Under the pieces are notes generated by a model that saw nothing but the letters and a program-made list of their open reading frames with translations, made no database searches and was not told the DNA's origin. The position numbers and the translations under genes were made by a program. 52,656 nucleotides of DNA from Mycobacterium sp. UM_CSW (GTDB lineage: Bacteria; Actinomycetota; Actinomycetes; Mycobacteriales; Mycobacteriaceae): assembly GCF_000455205.1 (NCBI RefSeq), contig NZ_AUWQ01000039.1, positions 1 through 52,656 on the forward strand, in the 5' to 3' direction. This document shows, in pieces, positions 36,755 through 51,667 of this stretch. Numbering within the stretch: the stretch's first letter is position 1; the number at the start of each line of letters is the position of its first letter.

Positions 36755-36779
36755 CTACCCGGCTCACGGCCGGCGAAAC
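36755..36779 (-). promoter_or_regulatory. SigF-like promoter of the GT4-araC operon
   Basis: On the minus strand GTTT (36776-36779), a 15-base spacer and GGGTAG (36755-36760). Near-match to SigF GTTT-N15-17-GGGTAT. The -10 ends 38 bases before the ATG at 36716. Confidence 0.5.
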
Positions 36780-36878
36780 GCCGGACTTCGCGCGCTTCGT
36801 CCGAGGCGTCGGCGTTTCGCATCGCGGATCTGCGGACATGCGCTGGGACGACGCCCCCGCAGGGAGGAGACTGGGGGC

Positions 36879-37735
36879 ATGACGAATTCCGAGCCACGTC
36901 CGCCGGTCGAACTGGTGGTGCTGCTGGCGTCGGCCGGCGGGTTGGACGCGCTGTCCATCGTCCTGCACGATTTGCCGACGGAATTTGCGGCCGCGGTCGT
37001 CGTGCAGCAGCACCTCGGCGGCCTTTCCAGCGTGCTTCCGACCATCCTGGGCCGACAGACCCCCATCGGGTCAGCTGGGCGCAGGACGGGCAGGCCGTAG
37101 TGCCGGGACAGGTGGTGGTCTGCCCGCCGGGTGTCCACCTTGAGATGACGCCGGACGGTCGCTGTCGCCTCCACAAGATGGTGGCGCTGCTGGAACGCCG
37201 TTTCGACGTGCTGCTGGCGTCGGTCGCCAAGTCGTACGGACCGCGCAGCGTGGCGGTGTTGTTGTCGGGGTCCGGCCAGGACGGCGCCGTCGGCACCATC
37301 GCGATGAAGCAGGCCGGCGCCCTCGTGATAGCCCAAAGCCCGAACACCGCCCAGTACCCGTCGCTGCCGACCGCGGCCGCGCGCGCGGGAGCCGATTTCG
37401 TGCTGCCGATTCACGAGATCGGGCATGTCCTGGCGGACGTCGTCAGCGGGGCACCGCTACCGGCCAAGGACCGGTCGCCAACGCCGCCGAGGTCGCTGCC
37501 AGCGGTCACGAAGAACCCGGCAATCGACCGCCGTCCCAACAACGCGGCCACTCGCGCCGAAGCGGCACGGCAGCGCGCGGCCGAACTCCAGCGCCGGCGC
37601 CATGAGCTGTCCGAAGGTTTCGGCGCGACCGAGCAGACTGTGTCGATCGCGCGGCGCAGAGCCCAAGAGTCGCTGCGCCGCGCGCAATTGGCGCACCAAG
37701 CGGCCTCGGAGGCATCCGCGCGGTGGGGACACTGA
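36879..37735 (+). pseudogene. cheB: CheB-type methylesterase gene broken by a single-base frameshift
   Basis: ATG 36879 follows AGGGAGGAG. The first frame codes LLASAGGLDALSIVL (catalytic-type Ser18) and VVVQQHLGG (His45), then shifts near 37068-37070 and stops at 37100. From 37070 the -1 frame continues the domain (VSWAQDGQAVVPGQVVVCPP, then LLSGSGQDGAVGTIAM with the third catalytic residue, Asp). Restoring one G in the GGG run at 37068-37070 would give one protein of about 285 residues with a basic coiled C-terminal tail. It could be a recent mutation, a sequencing error or programmed frameshifting; if read separately, the second part would be a 211-residue frame from GTG 37100. Confidence 0.8.
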
Positions 37736-37748
37736 CCGCCGCGCCACG

Positions 37749-39638
37749 CTACGACGGGCTCACGACCTCCATCAGCAACAGCGCGCCGCCGACGCTCGCG
37801 TCGCCCGATCGAAACGGTGTGCAAACCACCCGCACCCGTGCCGGGCGGCCGCGCCGATTGACAGCGTCGACCACCGTTTCACCGGAACTTTCCCCATCGA
37901 CGAACGCGTTGCCGATCAGCGGCCGCACGCTGTCGAGCGGCAATCCGATGTCCAGCCCGGTCAACCGAGTGCCCATCGTCTCGTCGGCCCGCAGTCCCCA
38001 CAGGTCCTCGCAGCCCCGGTTCCACACCACTACCCGCATTTCCCGGTCCACGACGACCATCCCCAGGCGAACCGAGTTGATCAGCGAATCCAGGAAGTTC
38101 TTGGCATCGTCCAGCTCCACGCTGCGTTCGCGCAGCGTCTCGTTGATGGTGTGCAGTTCGTCGTTCGTGGACTGCAGCTCCTCGTTCATCGTCTCGAGCT
38201 CTTCGTTGGTGGACTGCAGCTCCTCGTTGGTCGTCTCGAGCTCCTCCACCGTGGACTGCAGTTCCTCGTTGGTCGTCTCGAGTTCCTCGTTGGTGGACTG
38301 CAGCTCCTCGTACGCCGCCTCGAGCTGGCGGTTGGTCTGCACCACCTTGTCGAGCAAGGCGCGCGTCGCCGTGACGTCGAAGAACACGATCGATACACCG
38401 AGCAGGCCGTTCTCGGCGTCGACGAGCGGATTGACGTGAATCTCGAACCACACCGTGTCGGCGCCTGGCCGTTGCCACTTGACGTCCGGGATCCGCGCCG
38501 ACCGCCGCTCCACCTTGGCCTGCTCGAGGTAGGCACGCAGCTCTACCGGGCGGTAAGACACCTCGAGGTCGCGCAGCAGCCGGCCGATGTCGCGGGCCGA
38601 GAGCCCAAAGACGCTCTCGGCCTGCTGGTTGATCATCGCGACGGTGTCCTCGCCGGTGATGACGATCTGGGCGACGGGGCTGGCGCGAAAAGCCAAGTCG
38701 CGCACCGTGGTCAAGCCCGGCAGCTCGCCGTGGCGTTCGTAGAACGCGGCGGCCGGGTCGTAGCGATCGCCCGCGATCTGCGTCCCGGCGACCTTGCGGA
38801 AGATCCGGTGCTTGAGGTTCAACGGAGCGAAGCGGTCACTGTGGCTCAACAGCATCTCGGCGTGCCCGAGAAACAAGGTTCCCTGCGGAGCCAGCGCGAA
38901 ATGCAAGCGCCCCACCACGTTTCGCTGTGTCTCGGCGTTGAGATACATCAGGGTGTTGCGGCACACCAGCAGATCGACACGCGAAATCGGCGCGTCTTTG
39001 ACCAGGTCGTTCCGCCCGAAGATGACCGCGCGGCGCAGATCCTTGTGGAAGACGTAGCGGCCGTTGACCTGTTCGAAATAGCGCGTCAACAGATCCGGCG
39101 GCACCGACTCGACGGCCTTGGCGTCGTAGGATGCCGTGCGCGCCTCGGTAAGCGCCTCCTCGTCGATGTCGGTCGCGTAAATCTTGACGCGCTGACGGAA
39201 CTCATCGGGTCCCATCGCCTCGGCCAGCAGCATGGCCAGCGTGTAGGCCTCCTGCCCGGACGCGCATCCCGCGCTCCACACCCTGACCGGGTCACCCGGC
39301 CCGCGCTCGGCCAGCATCCGCGGGATGACCTCTGCGCTGACGAATTCCCAGGCCTCGGGGTCCCGGAAGAAGGCGGTGACGTTGATCAGGATGGTGTTGA
39401 ACAGCGAGGCGAACTCGTCGGAGCTGGCCTGCAGCACGTCCAGGTATTCCTCGTATGTGGCGTACCCCGCCTGGTCCATGCGGTGCCGGACCCGGCGCAT
39501 CAGCGACGTGCGCTTGTAGCCCGTGAAGTCGAAGCCCCGGGAATCGCGCATGTAGCGCAACAAAGCCTCGAAGGCCTCGTCCGTCGTGCCGTCCATCAAG
39601 GTCCCGTCGCAAGAGCGTTTGCTGTCGGACTCGAACAT
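37749..39638 (-). CDS. CheR-type methyltransferase fused to PAS, coiled coil and second PAS
   Basis: 629 residues. CheR N-terminal helices (about 20-95), then the SAM-dependent glutamate methyltransferase domain (about 100-285) with NVTAFFRDPEAW, WSAGCASGQEAYTLAM and VDLLVCRNTLMYLN. PAS 1 about 310-425, a regular 14-residue-period coiled coil (about 440-505, repeats of EELQSTN EELETTN) and PAS 2 about 510-627. Related CheB-CheR-PAS fusions exist in many bacteria. Mycobacteria have no flagella or classical chemoreceptors, so its target is unknown. An internal ATG at 39596 is an alternative start. It lies downstream of the STAS-HATPase and CheB genes on the same strand. Confidence 0.92.
   Translation of the reverse strand: MFESDSKRSCDGTLMDGTTDEAFEALLRYMRDSRGFDFTGYKRTSLMRRVRHRMDQAGYATYEEYLDVLQASSDEFASLFNTILINVTAFFRDPEAWEFVSAEVIPRMLAERGPGDPVRVWSAGCASGQEAYTLAMLLAEAMGPDEFRQRVKIYATDIDEEALTEARTASYDAKAVESVPPDLLTRYFEQVNGRYVFHKDLRRAVIFGRNDLVKDAPISRVDLLVCRNTLMYLNAETQRNVVGRLHFALAPQGTLFLGHAEMLLSHSDRFAPLNLKHRIFRKVAGTQIAGDRYDPAAAFYERHGELPGLTTVRDLAFRASPVAQIVITGEDTVAMINQQAESVFGLSARDIGRLLRDLEVSYRPVELRAYLEQAKVERRSARIPDVKWQRPGADTVWFEIHVNPLVDAENGLLGVSIVFFDVTATRALLDKVVQTNRQLEAAYEELQSTNEELETTNEELQSTVEELETTNEELQSTNEELETMNEELQSTNDELHTINETLRERSVELDDAKNFLDSLINSVRLGMVVVDREMRVVVWNRGCEDLWGLRADETMGTRLTGLDIGLPLDSVRPLIGNAFVDGESSGETVVDAVNRRGRPARVRVVCTPFRSGDASVGGALLLMEVVSPS
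38139..38312 (-). repeat. 42-base periodic coding repeat (coiled coil of the CheR-PAS protein)
   Basis: About four imperfect 42-base units, each coding two heptads of the form EELQSTN-EELETTN. The DNA units are similar enough to allow slippage in 42-base steps, which would lengthen or shorten the coiled coil between the two PAS domains without breaking the frame. Confidence 0.8.
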
Positions 39639-39648
39639 TACTCCGACG

Positions 39649-40416
39649 TCACAGGAGATTTTCGCGCCCGACCAGTGCCCAGACCGTCTTGCCCGACGAC
39701 GTCGGAGTGGCGCCCCAGGCGCGGCACAACGCGGACACGATTGCCAGCCCGGAGACGATCTCGGCTCCGCGATCGCCGTCCTCGTGCCTCCCGGGCAGGC
39801 GGTCGCTGCGATCCTCGACCGCGACGGTGATGGTGTCCCGATGGCTCTCCACGATGAGCACCGGCGCGCTCTGCGTGTGGTCGATGACGTTTTCGACGAA
39901 GACGGTGCCCACCGCGGCAGCGACCGGGATCAGGTCGCGCTTGTCCCATTTGGTGAGCCAGTCGGTGATTATGGCGCGGGCCAGGCCGACGCTTTGCCCG
40001 GCTGCCGGTAGCTCGCTTCGCGCGCACCACCGGATGGCCAAGGGCTGGCCGCGCACGGCGTCCAGCGCCGACAGCCGCGTGGGGTGCACCGGCACGTATC
40101 GGGTCACGCCGCCGGCGGCGATCGACCGCCGGACCTGCGGCTGCTCGCACACCAGCAGGATGGGCACGTCCGGCCACACGCTGACGTGCCAGCGGGCGCT
40201 GGTGAACACGGTCCATGCCGACGCGGACGGCACGGACAGACGGTTGACGTCGACGATCACCGCTCGCGGCTCGTCGAGCGCGGCCTTGATCACGGTGTCG
40301 CGCACGGTCCGGTACGTGGAGCTGTCCAGCACCCCGTCCATCGCCAGGACCGGCACGTCGTGTCGGGGTGCCCTCTCGATCCGGATCGTCGACCGCGGTT
40401 CAGCCACCGGGATCAC
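39649..40416 (-). CDS. STAS domain fused to HATPase (anti-sigma-regulator-like) domain
   Basis: 255 residues. The N-terminal half (about 15-112) is STAS-like: VPVLAMDGVLDSSTYRTVRD, AVIVDVNRLSVPSASAWTVF with serines where anti-anti-sigma factors are phosphorylated. The C-terminal half (about 130-252) is HATPase-like: AVGTVFVENVIDHTQ as N-box, then GLAIVSALCRAWGATPTSSG KTVWALV. The N-box Glu that normally activates water in SpoIIAB/RsbW kinases seems replaced by Val, so kinase activity is doubtful. It fuses two partner-switch modules usually made separately. GTG 40416 overlaps the cheB stop; GTG 40407 is possible. Confidence 0.8.
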   Translation of the reverse strand: MIPVAEPRSTIRIERAPRHDVPVLAMDGVLDSSTYRTVRDTVIKAALDEPRAVIVDVNRLSVPSASAWTVFTSARWHVSVWPDVPILLVCEQPQVRRSIAAGGVTRYVPVHPTRLSALDAVRGQPLAIRWCARSELPAAGQSVGLARAIITDWLTKWDKRDLIPVAAAVGTVFVENVIDHTQSAPVLIVESHRDTITVAVEDRSDRLPGRHEDGDRGAEIVSGLAIVSALCRAWGATPTSSGKTVWALVGRENLL

Positions 40417-41419
40417 CGGGATCCGGGGCGGTGGCCGCGAGCCGGTCGCCGAGCACGGTCAGTGCCCTTTCGCTTTCCTCGGCAAGCGTGTGGTAGCGGT
40501 GAGCGACCGGACCGGGACCCGCTTTTTCGGCCAGCTGCCGGGCCAGTTTGGCCTTCTCTTGCAGGCTGCGCAGGGCCACCCACAGGGCGCCCTCGATCTC
40601 GCGGTCCCGCGCCGCGAGCAGAGCATCGGAAGTCCAGGCGTGGCCGACGCGGCAACGGAAGTTGCCCTCGCCGAGGGAGATCAGCGAGCCGTTGCAGTCG
40701 GGGCACGTGTACCCCGACGGCATGCCGAGTTCCTGGGTGTCGAATTCGGTCGAAAACCGGGAGGTCATGGCGATACGGTTTTCGAGGTCCAGCGCCGCGT
40801 CGGGTTCCATGACCGGGTCCTCGATTCTTCTCTGGGACAGCTCTTTGAGCAGCGCCCCGACCTCGGCCGCGGCGGCCTGCCGATCCAGCACGCCGGCGTC
40901 GCGCGCGTTGGTCGGCAGGGCCGGGAACAGCGCGTCCTCGGCCGACTGGCCGATGGTGGTGCCGCCGCGCGAGCGGATCGCGGCCAGCCCCAGCACGCCG
41001 TCGTCGAGCACACCCGAGAGCAACACGCCGATCGCGCGGGGGCCGAACGCCACGGCGACCGAACGGAACAAGGCGTTGATCGCGGGCCGGTGCCCGTTCT
41101 CGGTCGGCCCCTGAGACAGCACAACGCGATGGTCGGCGACCAGCAGATGACGATCCGGGCCGCAGACGTAGATGTGGCCCGGCTGCAGCGTCGCGCCGTC
41201 CTCGGCGGTGACCGCCGGCAGCGGGCCGCTGCGATCGATGATCCGGGCCAGCACGCTCGGCGCACCGGCGGGAACGTGCAGCACGATCAAGTACGCGTAC
41301 GGCAAATCCGGCGACAGACCGGCGGCGAACCGTGAGAGGGCTTCGACTCCGCCGGCCGAGGCGCCGATGGCGACCACTCCGCGCAGCCCATCGTTTTGGT
41401 TGGTCGCGTCAATCACCAC
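40400..41419 (-). CDS. cheB: CheB-type protein-glutamate methylesterase with C-terminal zinc ribbon
   Basis: 339 residues, no receiver domain. The CheB catalytic triad residues are visible: Ser21 in AIGASAGG, His48 in IVLHVPAG, Asp140 in LSGVLDDGVLG. After a linker, a zinc ribbon CPDC...CRVGH (Cys239, Cys242, Cys256, His260) and a helical tail (LRSLQEKAKLARQLAEKAG) follow. Without an N-terminal receiver the enzyme cannot be controlled by CheA in the usual way. First gene of the cheB / STAS-HATPase / cheR-PAS operon, with a leaderless-type GTG start close to a SigF-like promoter. Confidence 0.9.
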   Translation of the reverse strand: MVIDATNQNDGLRGVVAIGASAGGVEALSRFAAGLSPDLPYAYLIVLHVPAGAPSVLARIIDRSGPLPAVTAEDGATLQPGHIYVCGPDRHLLVADHRVVLSQGPTENGHRPAINALFRSVAVAFGPRAIGVLLSGVLDDGVLGLAAIRSRGGTTIGQSAEDALFPALPTNARDAGVLDRQAAAAEVGALLKELSQRRIEDPVMEPDAALDLENRIAMTSRFSTEFDTQELGMPSGYTCPDCNGSLISLGEGNFRCRVGHAWTSDALLAARDREIEGALWVALRSLQEKAKLARQLAEKAGPGPVAHRYHTLAEESERALTVLGDRLAATAPDPGDPGG

Positions 41420-41425
41420 CCTCGG

Positions 41426-41450
41426 CTACCCGCATCAAGCCTACGTAACC
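41426..41450 (-). promoter_or_regulatory. SigF-like, leaderless-type promoter of the cheB operon
   Basis: On the minus strand GGTT (41447-41450), a 15-base spacer and GGGTAG (41426-41431). The -10 ends six bases before the GTG at 41419, so the transcript would start at or next to the start codon. Confidence 0.45.
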
Positions 41451-41516: not shown

Positions 41517-43646
41517 ATGGGAGCCAATGACACGCCTGATCCAAAACAGCGCGACCTCGAGCCGTCGCGCGTGCGCCGCGACACCGGATACCTGACCACC
41601 CAGCAGGGCGTCCGCGTCGATCACACCGACGATTCGCTGACCGCCGGCGAACGGGGACCCACGCTGCTGGAGGACTTTCACGCCCGGGAGAAGATCACCC
41701 ACTTCGATCACGAGCGAATCCCCGAGCGCGTCGTTCACGCGCGCGGCGCCGGGGCGTACGGCTACTTCGAACCCTACGACGACTGGCTGGCCGAATACAC
41801 CGCCGCGAAATTCCTGACCACGCCGGGCACCCGGACCCCGGTGTTCGTGCGGTTCTCCACGGTGGCCGGCTCGCGCGGCTCGGCCGACACGGTCCGCGAC
41901 GTGCGTGGCTTTGCCACCAAGTTCTACACCGAGCAGGGCAACTACGACCTGGTGGGCAACAACTTCCCGGTCTTCTTCATCCAGGACGGGATCAAGTTCC
42001 CCGACTTCGTCCACGCGGTGAAACCCGAGCCGCACAACGAGATTCCGCAGGCCGCCTCGGCACACGACACACTGTGGGACTTCGTCTCCCTCCAGCCCGA
42101 GACGCTGCACACCATCATGTGGCTGATGTCGGACCGGGCGCTGCCGCGCAGCTACCGCATGATGCAGGGGTTCGGCGTGCACACCTTCCGCCTGGTAAAC
42201 GCCCGCGGCGAAGGCACTTTCGTGAAGTTCCACTGGAAGCCCCGCCTTGGTGTGCACTCGCTGATCTGGGACGAATGCCAGAAGATCGCCGGCAAGGACC
42301 CCGACTACAACCGGCGCGACCTGTGGGAGGCCATCGAGTCCGGCCAGTATCCGGAGTGGGAACTCGGGGTGCAGCTCGTGCCCGAGGCCGACGAGTTCAA
42401 CTTCGACTTCGACCTCCTCGACGCCACGAAGCTCATTCCCGAGGAACAGGTTCCGGTCCGTCCGGTCGGCAAGATGGTGCTGAACCGCAACCCCGACAAC
42501 TTCTTCGCCGAGACCGAGCAGGTCGCCTTCCACACCGCCAACGTGGTGCCGGGGATCGACTTCACCAATGACCCGCTGCTGCAGTTCCGCAACTTCTCCT
42601 ACCTGGACACGCAGTTGATCCGCCTCGGCGGGCCCAACTTCGCGCAGCTGCCGGTCAACCGGCCGGTGGCCGACGTCCGCAACAACCAGCAGGACGGCTA
42701 CTCCCAGCACGCCATCCCGCAGGGCCGGACCAGCTACTACAAGAACACCCTCGGCGGCGGATGCCCGGCGCTGGCCAACGACGACGTGTTCCGCCACTAC
42801 ACGCAGCGGATCGACGGCGCCGCGATGCGCAAGCGCGCCAAGTCCTTCGAGAATCACTACAGCCAGGCACGGATGTTCTGGAAGAGCATGTCGGCGGTCG
42901 AGGCCGAACACATCGTCGCCGCCTTCGCCTTCGAACTGGGCAAGGTCGAAGTGCCCGACATCCGTTCGGCTGTGGTGGCCCAACTCGCTCGCGTCGACCA
43001 CGGGCTGGCCACTCGGGTGGCGGCGAAGCTGGGCCTGCCGGCGCCGCCCGACGAAGCCGTCGACGGCGAGGTCGCCTCCTCGCCGGCGCTGTCCCAGATC
43101 GGTGCCGCGAATTCTGCGGACAGCATCGAGTCGCGCAAGATCGCCGTGCTGGCCGCGGACGGCGTGGATGTCGTTGGAACGCAACGCTTCAAGGAGCTGA
43201 TGGCCCAGCGCGGCGCGATGGTCGAGGTCCTGGCCCCCGTCGCCGGCGGCACCCTGCGCGGCGGTTCGGGCGGGGAGCTCCCCGTCGACCGGGCGTTCAC
43301 GACGATGGCATCGGTCCTCTACGACGCGGTGGTGGTGGCGTGCGGGCCGGATTCGGTGGCGACGCTTTCCGAGGACGGTTACGCCGTGCACTTCGTGGTC
43401 GAGGCCTACAAGCACCTGAAGCCGATCGGCGCGTACGGCAAGGGGATCGACATGCTGCGCGCCGCGCACATCGATGCCCGCCTCGCCTCCGACGGCGACT
43501 CAGCCGCCGACGTGGTGAACGACCGGTCCGTCGTGACCACGAAGGCGGCCGCCGACGACTTCCCCGATCAATTCGCCGATGAATTCGCCGCCGCGCTGGC
43601 CCGCCACCGCTGCTGGGAGCGCCAAACCGACCCGGTGCCGGCATAA
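41517..43646 (+). CDS. katE: Large-subunit monofunctional catalase (HPII/KatE type)
   Basis: 709 residues, the length of clade-2 catalases. It degrades H2O2 with a buried haem. Distal His in [12 protein letters not shown], Asn in [13 protein letters not shown], proximal haem-ligand Tyr in [16 protein letters not shown]. The C-terminal flavodoxin-like/GATase-like domain (about 545-700: [34 protein letters not shown]) is characteristic of this clade. Distinct from KatG. The small basic protein gene follows after 19 bases and probably shares its transcript. Confidence 0.96.
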
Positions 43647-44654: not shown

Positions 44655-44679
44655 ATACCCCCCTTTCGGTGGCACAACC
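44655..44679 (-). promoter_or_regulatory. SigF-like promoter of the nucleotidyltransferase gene
   Basis: On the minus strand GGTT (44676-44679), 15-base spacer, GGGTAT (44655-44660), a perfect -10. It ends 12 bases before the ATG at 44642. Confidence 0.6.
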
Positions 44680-48622: not shown

Positions 48623-48647
48623 GTTTGAAAGCGGTAATTCCGGGTAG
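48623..48647 (+). promoter_or_regulatory. SigF-like promoter of the NmrA-like gene
   Basis: GTTT (48623-48626), 15-base spacer, GGGTAG (48642-48647), 25 bases before the GTG at 48673. Five of six -10 positions match. Confidence 0.55.
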
Positions 48648-51351: not shown

Positions 51352-51667
51352 TCCGACGCGTCGCGGCGGCCGACGCGGTCATATCCAGATTGCGAAGTGT
51401 TTCTCGCGCGACGAGCTGGGCGGCCGCCAAACGTGCCAGGACAACCGGGGGGCGCTGGCCGCGCGCATGCGACCGATGCCACTGACATTTCGCACAATGG
51501 ACGGCGGCGGGATGCGCCGCGACACCCGGTCCGTCGTCCGTTCGCTTGAACGTGGTTGCACGGGAATATAACTGGCGCACGAATGCGCTGAGTGACGCGC
51601 TCCCCGAGGGAGGAGACGGCGGCAGAAACGTCGTTTATGTAATGACCTATAGGGTATTTCGCTCGCC
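51352..51667 (+). other. Intergenic region between topoisomerase IB and glycosyltransferase genes
   Basis: 316 bases. Two short frames (51299-51571 plus and 51287-51580 minus) overlap the topoisomerase gene and have no ribosome site or family signature, so I see no gene. The only clear element is the SigF-like promoter at its end. Confidence 0.6.
51633..51657 (+). promoter_or_regulatory. SigF-like promoter of the terminal glycosyltransferase gene
   Basis: GTTT (51633-51636), 15-base spacer, GGGTAT (51652-51657), an exact match. The ATG at 51668 follows ten bases later, so the transcript is nearly leaderless. Confidence 0.65.

Follow-up and report, generated by a model that had tools for sequence, protein, structure and literature searches.

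An operon of Mycobacterium encoding CheB, CheR and a partner-switch-like protein behind a SigF-type promoter

Described systems and the operon of Mycobacterium sp. UM_CSW

Partner switching is held to run on serine phosphorylation, and the enzymes CheR and CheB are held to serve chemoreceptors. Here, we analyzed an operon of Mycobacterium sp. UM_CSW that encodes a CheB methylesterase, a fused STAS-HATPase protein and a CheR methyltransferase carrying PAS domains; it occupies positions 37749..41419 of a 52,656-nt stretch of DNA, referred to as the window (contig NZ_AUWQ01000039.1, assembly GCF_000455205.1). With its STAS and RsbW-type domains, the operon resembles the SigF network of M. smegmatis (RsbW1, RsbW2, RsbW3, RsfA, RsfB, RsfSR). 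According to the available portion of PMC7693655, RsbW3 is SigF-regulated and boosts SigF through binding RsbW1, RsfB is phosphorylated by RsbW2 only, RsbW1 and RsbW3 being without kinase activity on RsfB, and RsfB S63A binds RsbW1 while S63E does not. A further likeness is that a SigF-type promoter precedes rsbW3 as well as the operon of the window (available portions of PMC7693655 and PMC10950880). The terms CheR, chemotaxis and STAS are absent from the accessible text of PMC7693655; CheR, CheB and chemotaxis likewise go unmentioned in that of PMC4694148, and presence of the operon in M. smegmatis was not looked at. In contrast to this network, the STAS and HATPase domains of the window are fused, the acceptor serine is mostly and the kinase glutamate wholly lost, and CheR and CheB are added. 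A different fusion, Rv1364c, has the domain order PAS-RsbU-RsbW-STAS, whereas our operon lacks a phosphatase domain, places STAS before HATPase and carries its sensors on CheR.

With the enzymes of chemotaxis, the operon shares a CheR of the same fold family and a CheB with conserved Ser/His/Asp positions. It differs in that the genome has neither a chemoreceptor signalling domain nor CheW, in its receiver-less CheB and in the PAS-coil-PAS region of its CheR. Methylation enzymes also occur in the genus together with a hybrid histidine kinase and a GGDEF-EAL regulator: at L166:8985-16588 (G and L labels denote genomes and loci of our samples), a CheR of 282 aa and a CheB of 211 aa accompany a GAF-histidine kinase with receivers and a receiver-PAS-GGDEF-EAL protein. 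This is a separate system, without a STAS family among the matches to its four proteins. A different CheR/CheB pair was also seen in L182. The open-licence literature searched yielded no published system joining CheR/CheB to partner switching and, in agreement with a preliminary description of this DNA, no mycobacterial system of this form; the parts are known, and as far as these searches reach the combination is new.

All three genes lie on the minus strand. The first, cheB1 (40400..41419), encodes a 339-aa CheB (PF01339, 2.9e-49) that has no receiver domain by Pfam and ends in a zinc ribbon (CPDC...CRVGH). It is followed by the gene of the 255-aa STAS-HATPase fusion (39649..40416), a pseudo partner-switch protein with a STAS match (PF01740, 4.6e-8) and a HATPase half assigned by profile comparison and predicted fold, and by cheR (37749..39638), whose 629-aa product combines a CheR domain (PF01739, 1.6e-54) with PAS domains on either side of a coiled coil. 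By coordinates, cheB1 and the STAS-HATPase gene share 17 nt, and a gap of 10 nt separates the latter from cheR. Coordinates and Pfam thus bear out the preliminary description of a three-gene minus-strand operon beside katE with a receiver-less zinc-ribbon CheB. Active-site motifs were found in both the CheR and CheB domains by Pfam, structure alignments and a motif test. The Ser/His/Asp positions of CheB1 are conserved in sequence alignments with the CheB structures 1chd and 6ymz, and the motif test detected the triad in 55 and the zinc ribbon in all of 59 orthologues (one further stop-containing orthologue was left out). For CheR, the solved structures nearest by sequence are CheR methyltransferases (E 2.5e-39 to 5ftw). 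No HisKA/HATPase family was among the matches of the 629-aa protein at E<=0.001, so it is not a CheR-PAS-histidine kinase fusion.

We sampled 148 Mycobacterium genomes, the counts taking no account of relatedness. CheW was absent from the window's own genome and occurred in 1 of the 148; MCPsignal was likewise absent from the own genome, with matches in 2 of 148 at E<=1e-3 and in 1 over the cut-off. The initial statement that CheW and chemoreceptors are missing holds genome-wide, no search having been aimed at CheA alone; the CheW model also covers the last domain of CheA. The sole genome with CheW and an over-cut-off MCPsignal match, G032, has several CheR and may hold real chemotaxis genes or foreign contigs.

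Promoter, fold and conservation of the operon

The available text of PMC4694148 gives the SigF consensus as GTTT-N14-19-GGGTA, with GGTT forms tabulated, and the consensus was also taken from that of PMC7693655. We searched for a strict motif, G[GTC]TT-N15-17-GGGTA, within 120 bp before start codons, and used 20 rounds of dinucleotide shuffles as the null. In the window, a SigF-type promoter, GGTTACGTAGGCTTGATGCGGGTA, precedes cheB1 at 41427..41450 (minus strand), with 7 nt between the -10 box and the GTG start. A strict site was present before cheB1 in 54 of 67 loci, as compared to a mean of 0.45 and a maximum of 2 in the shuffles, and in an alignment of the 67 upstream regions the columns of GGTT and GGGTA rank with the best conserved. 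Other genes of the same loci scored 0/27 (KatE), 0/67 (CheR), 0/58 (AraC), 1/79 (STAS-HATPase), 0/54 (DUF7218), 0/32 (CheB2), 0/7 (nei), 0/11 (LLM) and 0/13 (CobF). Loci close to the window mostly adjoin glycosyltransferase and AraC genes, often with katE, and more distant ones are flanked by a CobF-like/nei/SDR/pgi block on one side and an LLM oxidoreductase gene on the other. The cheB1 site was strict in 45 of 51 loci of the glycosyltransferase/katE context (49 relaxed), in 7 of 13 at the second chromosomal site (9 relaxed) and in 2 of 3 in other contexts. It mostly begins 25-36 nt before the start codon, with starts placed by alignment to that of the window, and judging from this distance the cheB1 mRNA may be leaderless. 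Of 16 testable named loci that have lost CheB1 or carry a shortened one, 5 retain a strict site no more than 250 bp from the STAS-HATPase gene. At the sigF locus of the own genome (sigma match 5.7e-93), GGTT-N16-GGGTA precedes a 172-aa gene upstream of sigF. These motif data suggest that the operon is under SigF control.

The C-terminal half of the fused protein passes no Pfam cut-off (best weak match PF02518, E 0.043). Its initial reading as a HATPase nevertheless gained ground from profile comparison, which assigned a 99.6% probability to RsbW-type domains, and from the predicted fold, which resembles SpoIIAB/RsbW in this half and RsfB in the STAS half. RsfB in complex with UsfX was among the top matches of the STAS half; fold matches were taken from one list, and a fold missing from it is not thereby excluded. 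Residue 65, which aligns to the phospho-acceptor Ser-63 of RsfB, is Ser/Thr in 6 of 27 orthologues and not Ser in 22 (A 9, S 5, P 3, E 3, G 2, D 2, and T, R and Q). The N-box kinase glutamate (residue 172) is replaced by Val/Ile, and the first glycine of the G2 box by Val/Leu/Ile, in 27/27; the N-box asparagine is kept in 26 and the histidine in 27 of 27. Among the traits of partner switching, the protein thus has an antagonist-type STAS and an RsbW/SpoIIAB-type HATPase domain, and is without the phospho-acceptor serine and the N-box glutamate. Given the missing residues of the phosphorylation cycle and the M. smegmatis data on RsfB and RsbW, it appears to be a protein that binds partners, not one that relays phosphate. 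An assignment as ordinary RsbV or RsbW was rejected, as catalytic residues are missing.

A coiled coil at residues about 436-505 of CheR (38124..38333, minus strand) is a candidate methyl-accepting helix. EEL recurs in it every seven residues (444, 451, 458, 465, 472, 479, 486), and heptad-spaced glutamate pairs of this kind resemble the methylation helices of chemoreceptors. Conservation of the coil is strong throughout the phylum: its repeats, (S/T)T(N/V)EEL(E/Q), differ little between the mycobacterial sequences and nine from other classes, with a shortened form in G168 and an altered one in G332. A similar coil occurs in a CheB-CheR-PAS fusion of G242. Across 54 mycobacterial sequences, the invariant fraction was 0.42 for the coil, 0.38 for CheR, 0.39 for PAS1 and 0.17 for PAS2.

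The STAS-HATPase protein gave matches in 116 of the 148 Mycobacterium genomes at E<=1e-3. Genome counts at E<1e-40 for STAS-HATPase and E<1e-45 for operon-type CheR and CheB yielded 90, 53 and 56 genomes, respectively. The co-occurrence search proposed at the outset was run on this sample, and all 53 CheR genomes carry the other two genes, CheB sometimes lying elsewhere in the genome (G080). We left G032, with one CheR match of 2.4e-49, out of the CheR set as the sole genome with CheW and an over-cut-off MCPsignal match; if it is included, STAS-HATPase is present in 53 of 54 and CheB in 54 of 54 CheR genomes. CheB without a counted CheR was seen in G032, in G005, where the contig ends soon past the STAS-HATPase gene, and in G031, where CheR lies in two frames.

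Integrity was scored in 80 named loci, taken as the best 80 among 232 relatives. A gene counted as intact if its open frame had at least 300 (CheB1), 225 (STAS-HATPase) or 590 (CheR) codons, with no less than 85% of that length aligned. By this measure, 58 loci have the complete set of three intact genes and 78 an intact STAS-HATPase gene, including 14 in which CheB1 and CheR are both absent or broken. CheR is intact with CheB1 absent or broken in L100, L132, L157 and L163, plus L155 (contig end), and the reverse, an intact CheB1 and a broken CheR, is limited to L111 and L150, whose contigs end there. NG86 dN/dS values against three relatives were 0.08-0.11 for CheR, 0.07-0.14 for KatE, 0.16-0.24 for CheB1 and 0.26-0.31 for STAS-HATPase. 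The intact loci and the CheR values do not fit a sporadic and decaying operon, which the preliminary description would have taken as speaking against its proposal, yet CheB and CheR have been lost together in some lineages.

In a phylum sample of 396 genomes, the fused protein was matched in both halves in nine, namely eight Mycobacterium genomes and G347 (4.0e-34). The latter has the only full-length relative outside the genus, and none of the called genes next to it encodes CheB or CheR. Orthologues that span the whole CheR protein with its PAS-coil-PAS region, at 45-53% identity, are present in 11 genomes belonging to other actinobacterial classes, one of these orthologues lying in two contig pieces. 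Judged by these matches, the fused protein is nearly confined to Mycobacterium and the CheR protein is older. Within 3 kb of CheR, HATPase_c_2 was found in 6 of the 11 (expected 0.55, P 5e-6), STAS in 7 (expected 0.23, P 3e-10), and at least one of the two in 8 (expected 0.77, P 7e-8); two genomes have a SigB/F/G-type sigma gene at this distance (expected 0.27, P 0.03). The genomes are not independent, as G268, G247 and G396 are of one genus and six families are represented in all. For G247, the STAS count comes from a STAS_2 match below the cut-off, on a STAS-GAF-ANTAR protein; without it, STAS stands at 6/11 and either domain still at 8. On one strand, G168 encodes STAS, CheB, CheR, zinc-ribbon CheB and a sigma gene that reaches the contig end (TIGR02980 1.2e-64, 218 bits, below the cut-off of 234). 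G220 has CheB, CheR, a PAS-SpoIIE-HATPase_c_2 protein, a convergent sigma gene (2.9e-57, 194 bits) and STAS; G265 has STAS, HATPase_c_2 (9.1e-23), zinc-ribbon CheB and CheR; and G468 has a SpoIIE-HATPase protein and STAS beside a CheR with an internal stop. Neither STAS nor HATPase_c_2 lies near CheR in G521, G522 and G332. In L208:6638-8064 and L214:3-1099, proteins with GAF and ANTAR, an RNA-binding antitermination domain, are encoded directly upstream of HATPase_c_2, CheB and CheR, with a weak STAS in L208.

A possible feedback module of SigF and competing explanations

We consider it probable, short of confident, that the operon provides a module for sensing and adaptation in the general stress response, belonging to the SigF regulon, in which chemotaxis-type methylation enzymes and a partner-switch protein feed back on SigF. 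The operon would be made under SigF control, and CheR would carry two PAS sensors joined by its glutamate-rich coiled coil. Together, CheR and CheB would set the state of this coil, in cis or between subunits, or that of another partner, via reversible glutamate methylation. As key residues of the phosphorylation cycle are lost, the fused STAS-HATPase protein would act as a binding partner, loading or unloading the RsbW1/UsfX-type anti-sigma factor that belongs to SigF or to a close relative of it. After SigF activation, the module would tune how strong the response is or how long it lasts; given the SigF-type promoter of the operon, this action would amount to feedback, whichever sign it may have. 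The preliminary description had proposed a methylation-controlled, anti-sigma-type switch, possibly of SigF. A link to SigF is favoured by the promoter, by the strict co-occurrence of the three genes in a genus that lacks chemotaxis and by the linkage of CheR, recurrent in other classes, to STAS, RsbW-type, SpoIIE-type and SigF-type genes. With the phospho-switch residues missing, however, the term 'anti-sigma-type switch' matches the fold better than the chemistry. Two observations weigh against a feedback module: the CheR coil has no match to the strict chemoreceptor methylation consensus, and the promoter indicates regulation by SigF rather than of SigF.

The latter point also speaks for the idea that SigF merely activates the operon. 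The output would then go to some other target, for instance an enzyme, a second-messenger protein or another sigma factor, the STAS-HATPase protein serving as switch. The own genome does hold a second strong SigB/F/G-type sigma gene (G000:C153, E 6.2e-88), and loss of the kinase glutamate and the first G2 glycine in all 27 aligned orthologues means that the partners may have changed. On the other hand, the same CheR is found in other classes beside STAS, RsbW-type and twice sigma genes, and the STAS half has the RsfB-UsfX complex as one of its best fold matches, so that we regard a different output as rather unlikely. Still less probable, in our judgement, is that CheB-CheR and STAS-HATPase represent two independent stress functions under one SigF-type promoter. 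This would be compatible with the 14 loci that keep STAS-HATPase alone intact and with the 37 of 90 STAS-HATPase genomes that lack an operon-type CheR by the thresholds used. However, operon-type CheR was never found without STAS-HATPase (53/53, G032 left out), G137 and G019 retain all three genes though CheR is 10-16 kb distant, and the linkage to STAS/RsbW recurs in other classes. Finally, broken operon copies (G118, G031, G089, L158) and the split CheB2 of the own genome could be taken to indicate a decaying chemotaxis remnant in a genus without chemotaxis. We rejected this explanation as highly improbable on the grounds of constraint (CheR dN/dS like that of katE), the 58 intact loci and the lack of CheW in all but one of 148 genomes; full-length CheR orthologues, PAS-coil-PAS included, elsewhere in the phylum also argue against it.

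Returning to a feedback module of SigF, a bolder form of it, which we put forward tentatively and hold to be somewhat doubtful, is that glutamate methylation replaces serine phosphorylation. In this case, methyl groups would be added by CheR and removed by CheB at the heptad-spaced Glu-Glu pairs within CheR's own PAS-flanked coil, a built-in receptor mimic, creating a chemotaxis-like memory for the SigF response that is read by the residue-depleted STAS-HATPase protein; elsewhere in Actinomycetota, versions retain this CheR next to genes of RsbU, RsbV and RsbW type and at times a sigma gene. The operon suggests that receptor-style adaptation is applicable to the general stress response, and hence a so far undescribed means of tuning a bacterial stress response. 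It could provide the 'orphan' CheR/CheB genes found in other actinobacteria with a function, bring a further input into SigF control in mycobacteria and explain why many mycobacteria retain the STAS-HATPase gene without CheB and CheR.

Neighbouring genes and the second chromosomal site

Beyond the CheB of the preliminary description, the window holds a second one, CheB2 (36876-37735, plus strand), which is convergent to cheR and split across two frames near 37064-37100. Its first piece (36876..37100) covers positions 1-52 of PF01339, and its second (37100..37735, in the other frame, with the Pfam match starting at 37064) positions 52-173. In several katE-context relatives, CheB2 is a single unbroken PF01339 match. 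G143 (L027, L046) has CheB2 and no CheB1.

By Pfam and gene coordinates, katE (41517..43646) is divergent from the operon, in opposite orientation. We rejected it as a partner, since none of 27 loci has a strict SigF-type site in the 120 bp upstream of katE and the operon is found without katE at the second chromosomal site in the stretches compared. In G037 and G085 (L169, L170), cheR and cheB point away from each other, and near cheR lies the gene of a different long catalase that shares 52-53% identity with the katE product of the window, which leaves room for a loose catalase link.

At the second site, the own genome encodes an orphan STAS-HATPase paralogue (L034:9231-10004, minus strand; 46-47% identical), which has no CheB or CheR among its neighbours and no strict SigF-type site within 250 bp, relaxed ones only. 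By gene order, this locus probably corresponds to the place of Rv0941c in M. tuberculosis. In the available portion of PMC1884158, Rv0941c is merely tabulated.

A SigF-type site also precedes the neighbouring glycosyltransferase gene (36756..36779, minus strand), where 49 of 61 loci have a strict one, and this gene may share the SigF regulon. Across the window, GKTT-N15-GGGTA occurs at 5 sites as compared to 0.18 expected (100 shuffles, largest 3). Three further such sites lie at 44656-44679 (minus strand), 48623-48646 (plus strand) and 51633-51656 (plus strand).

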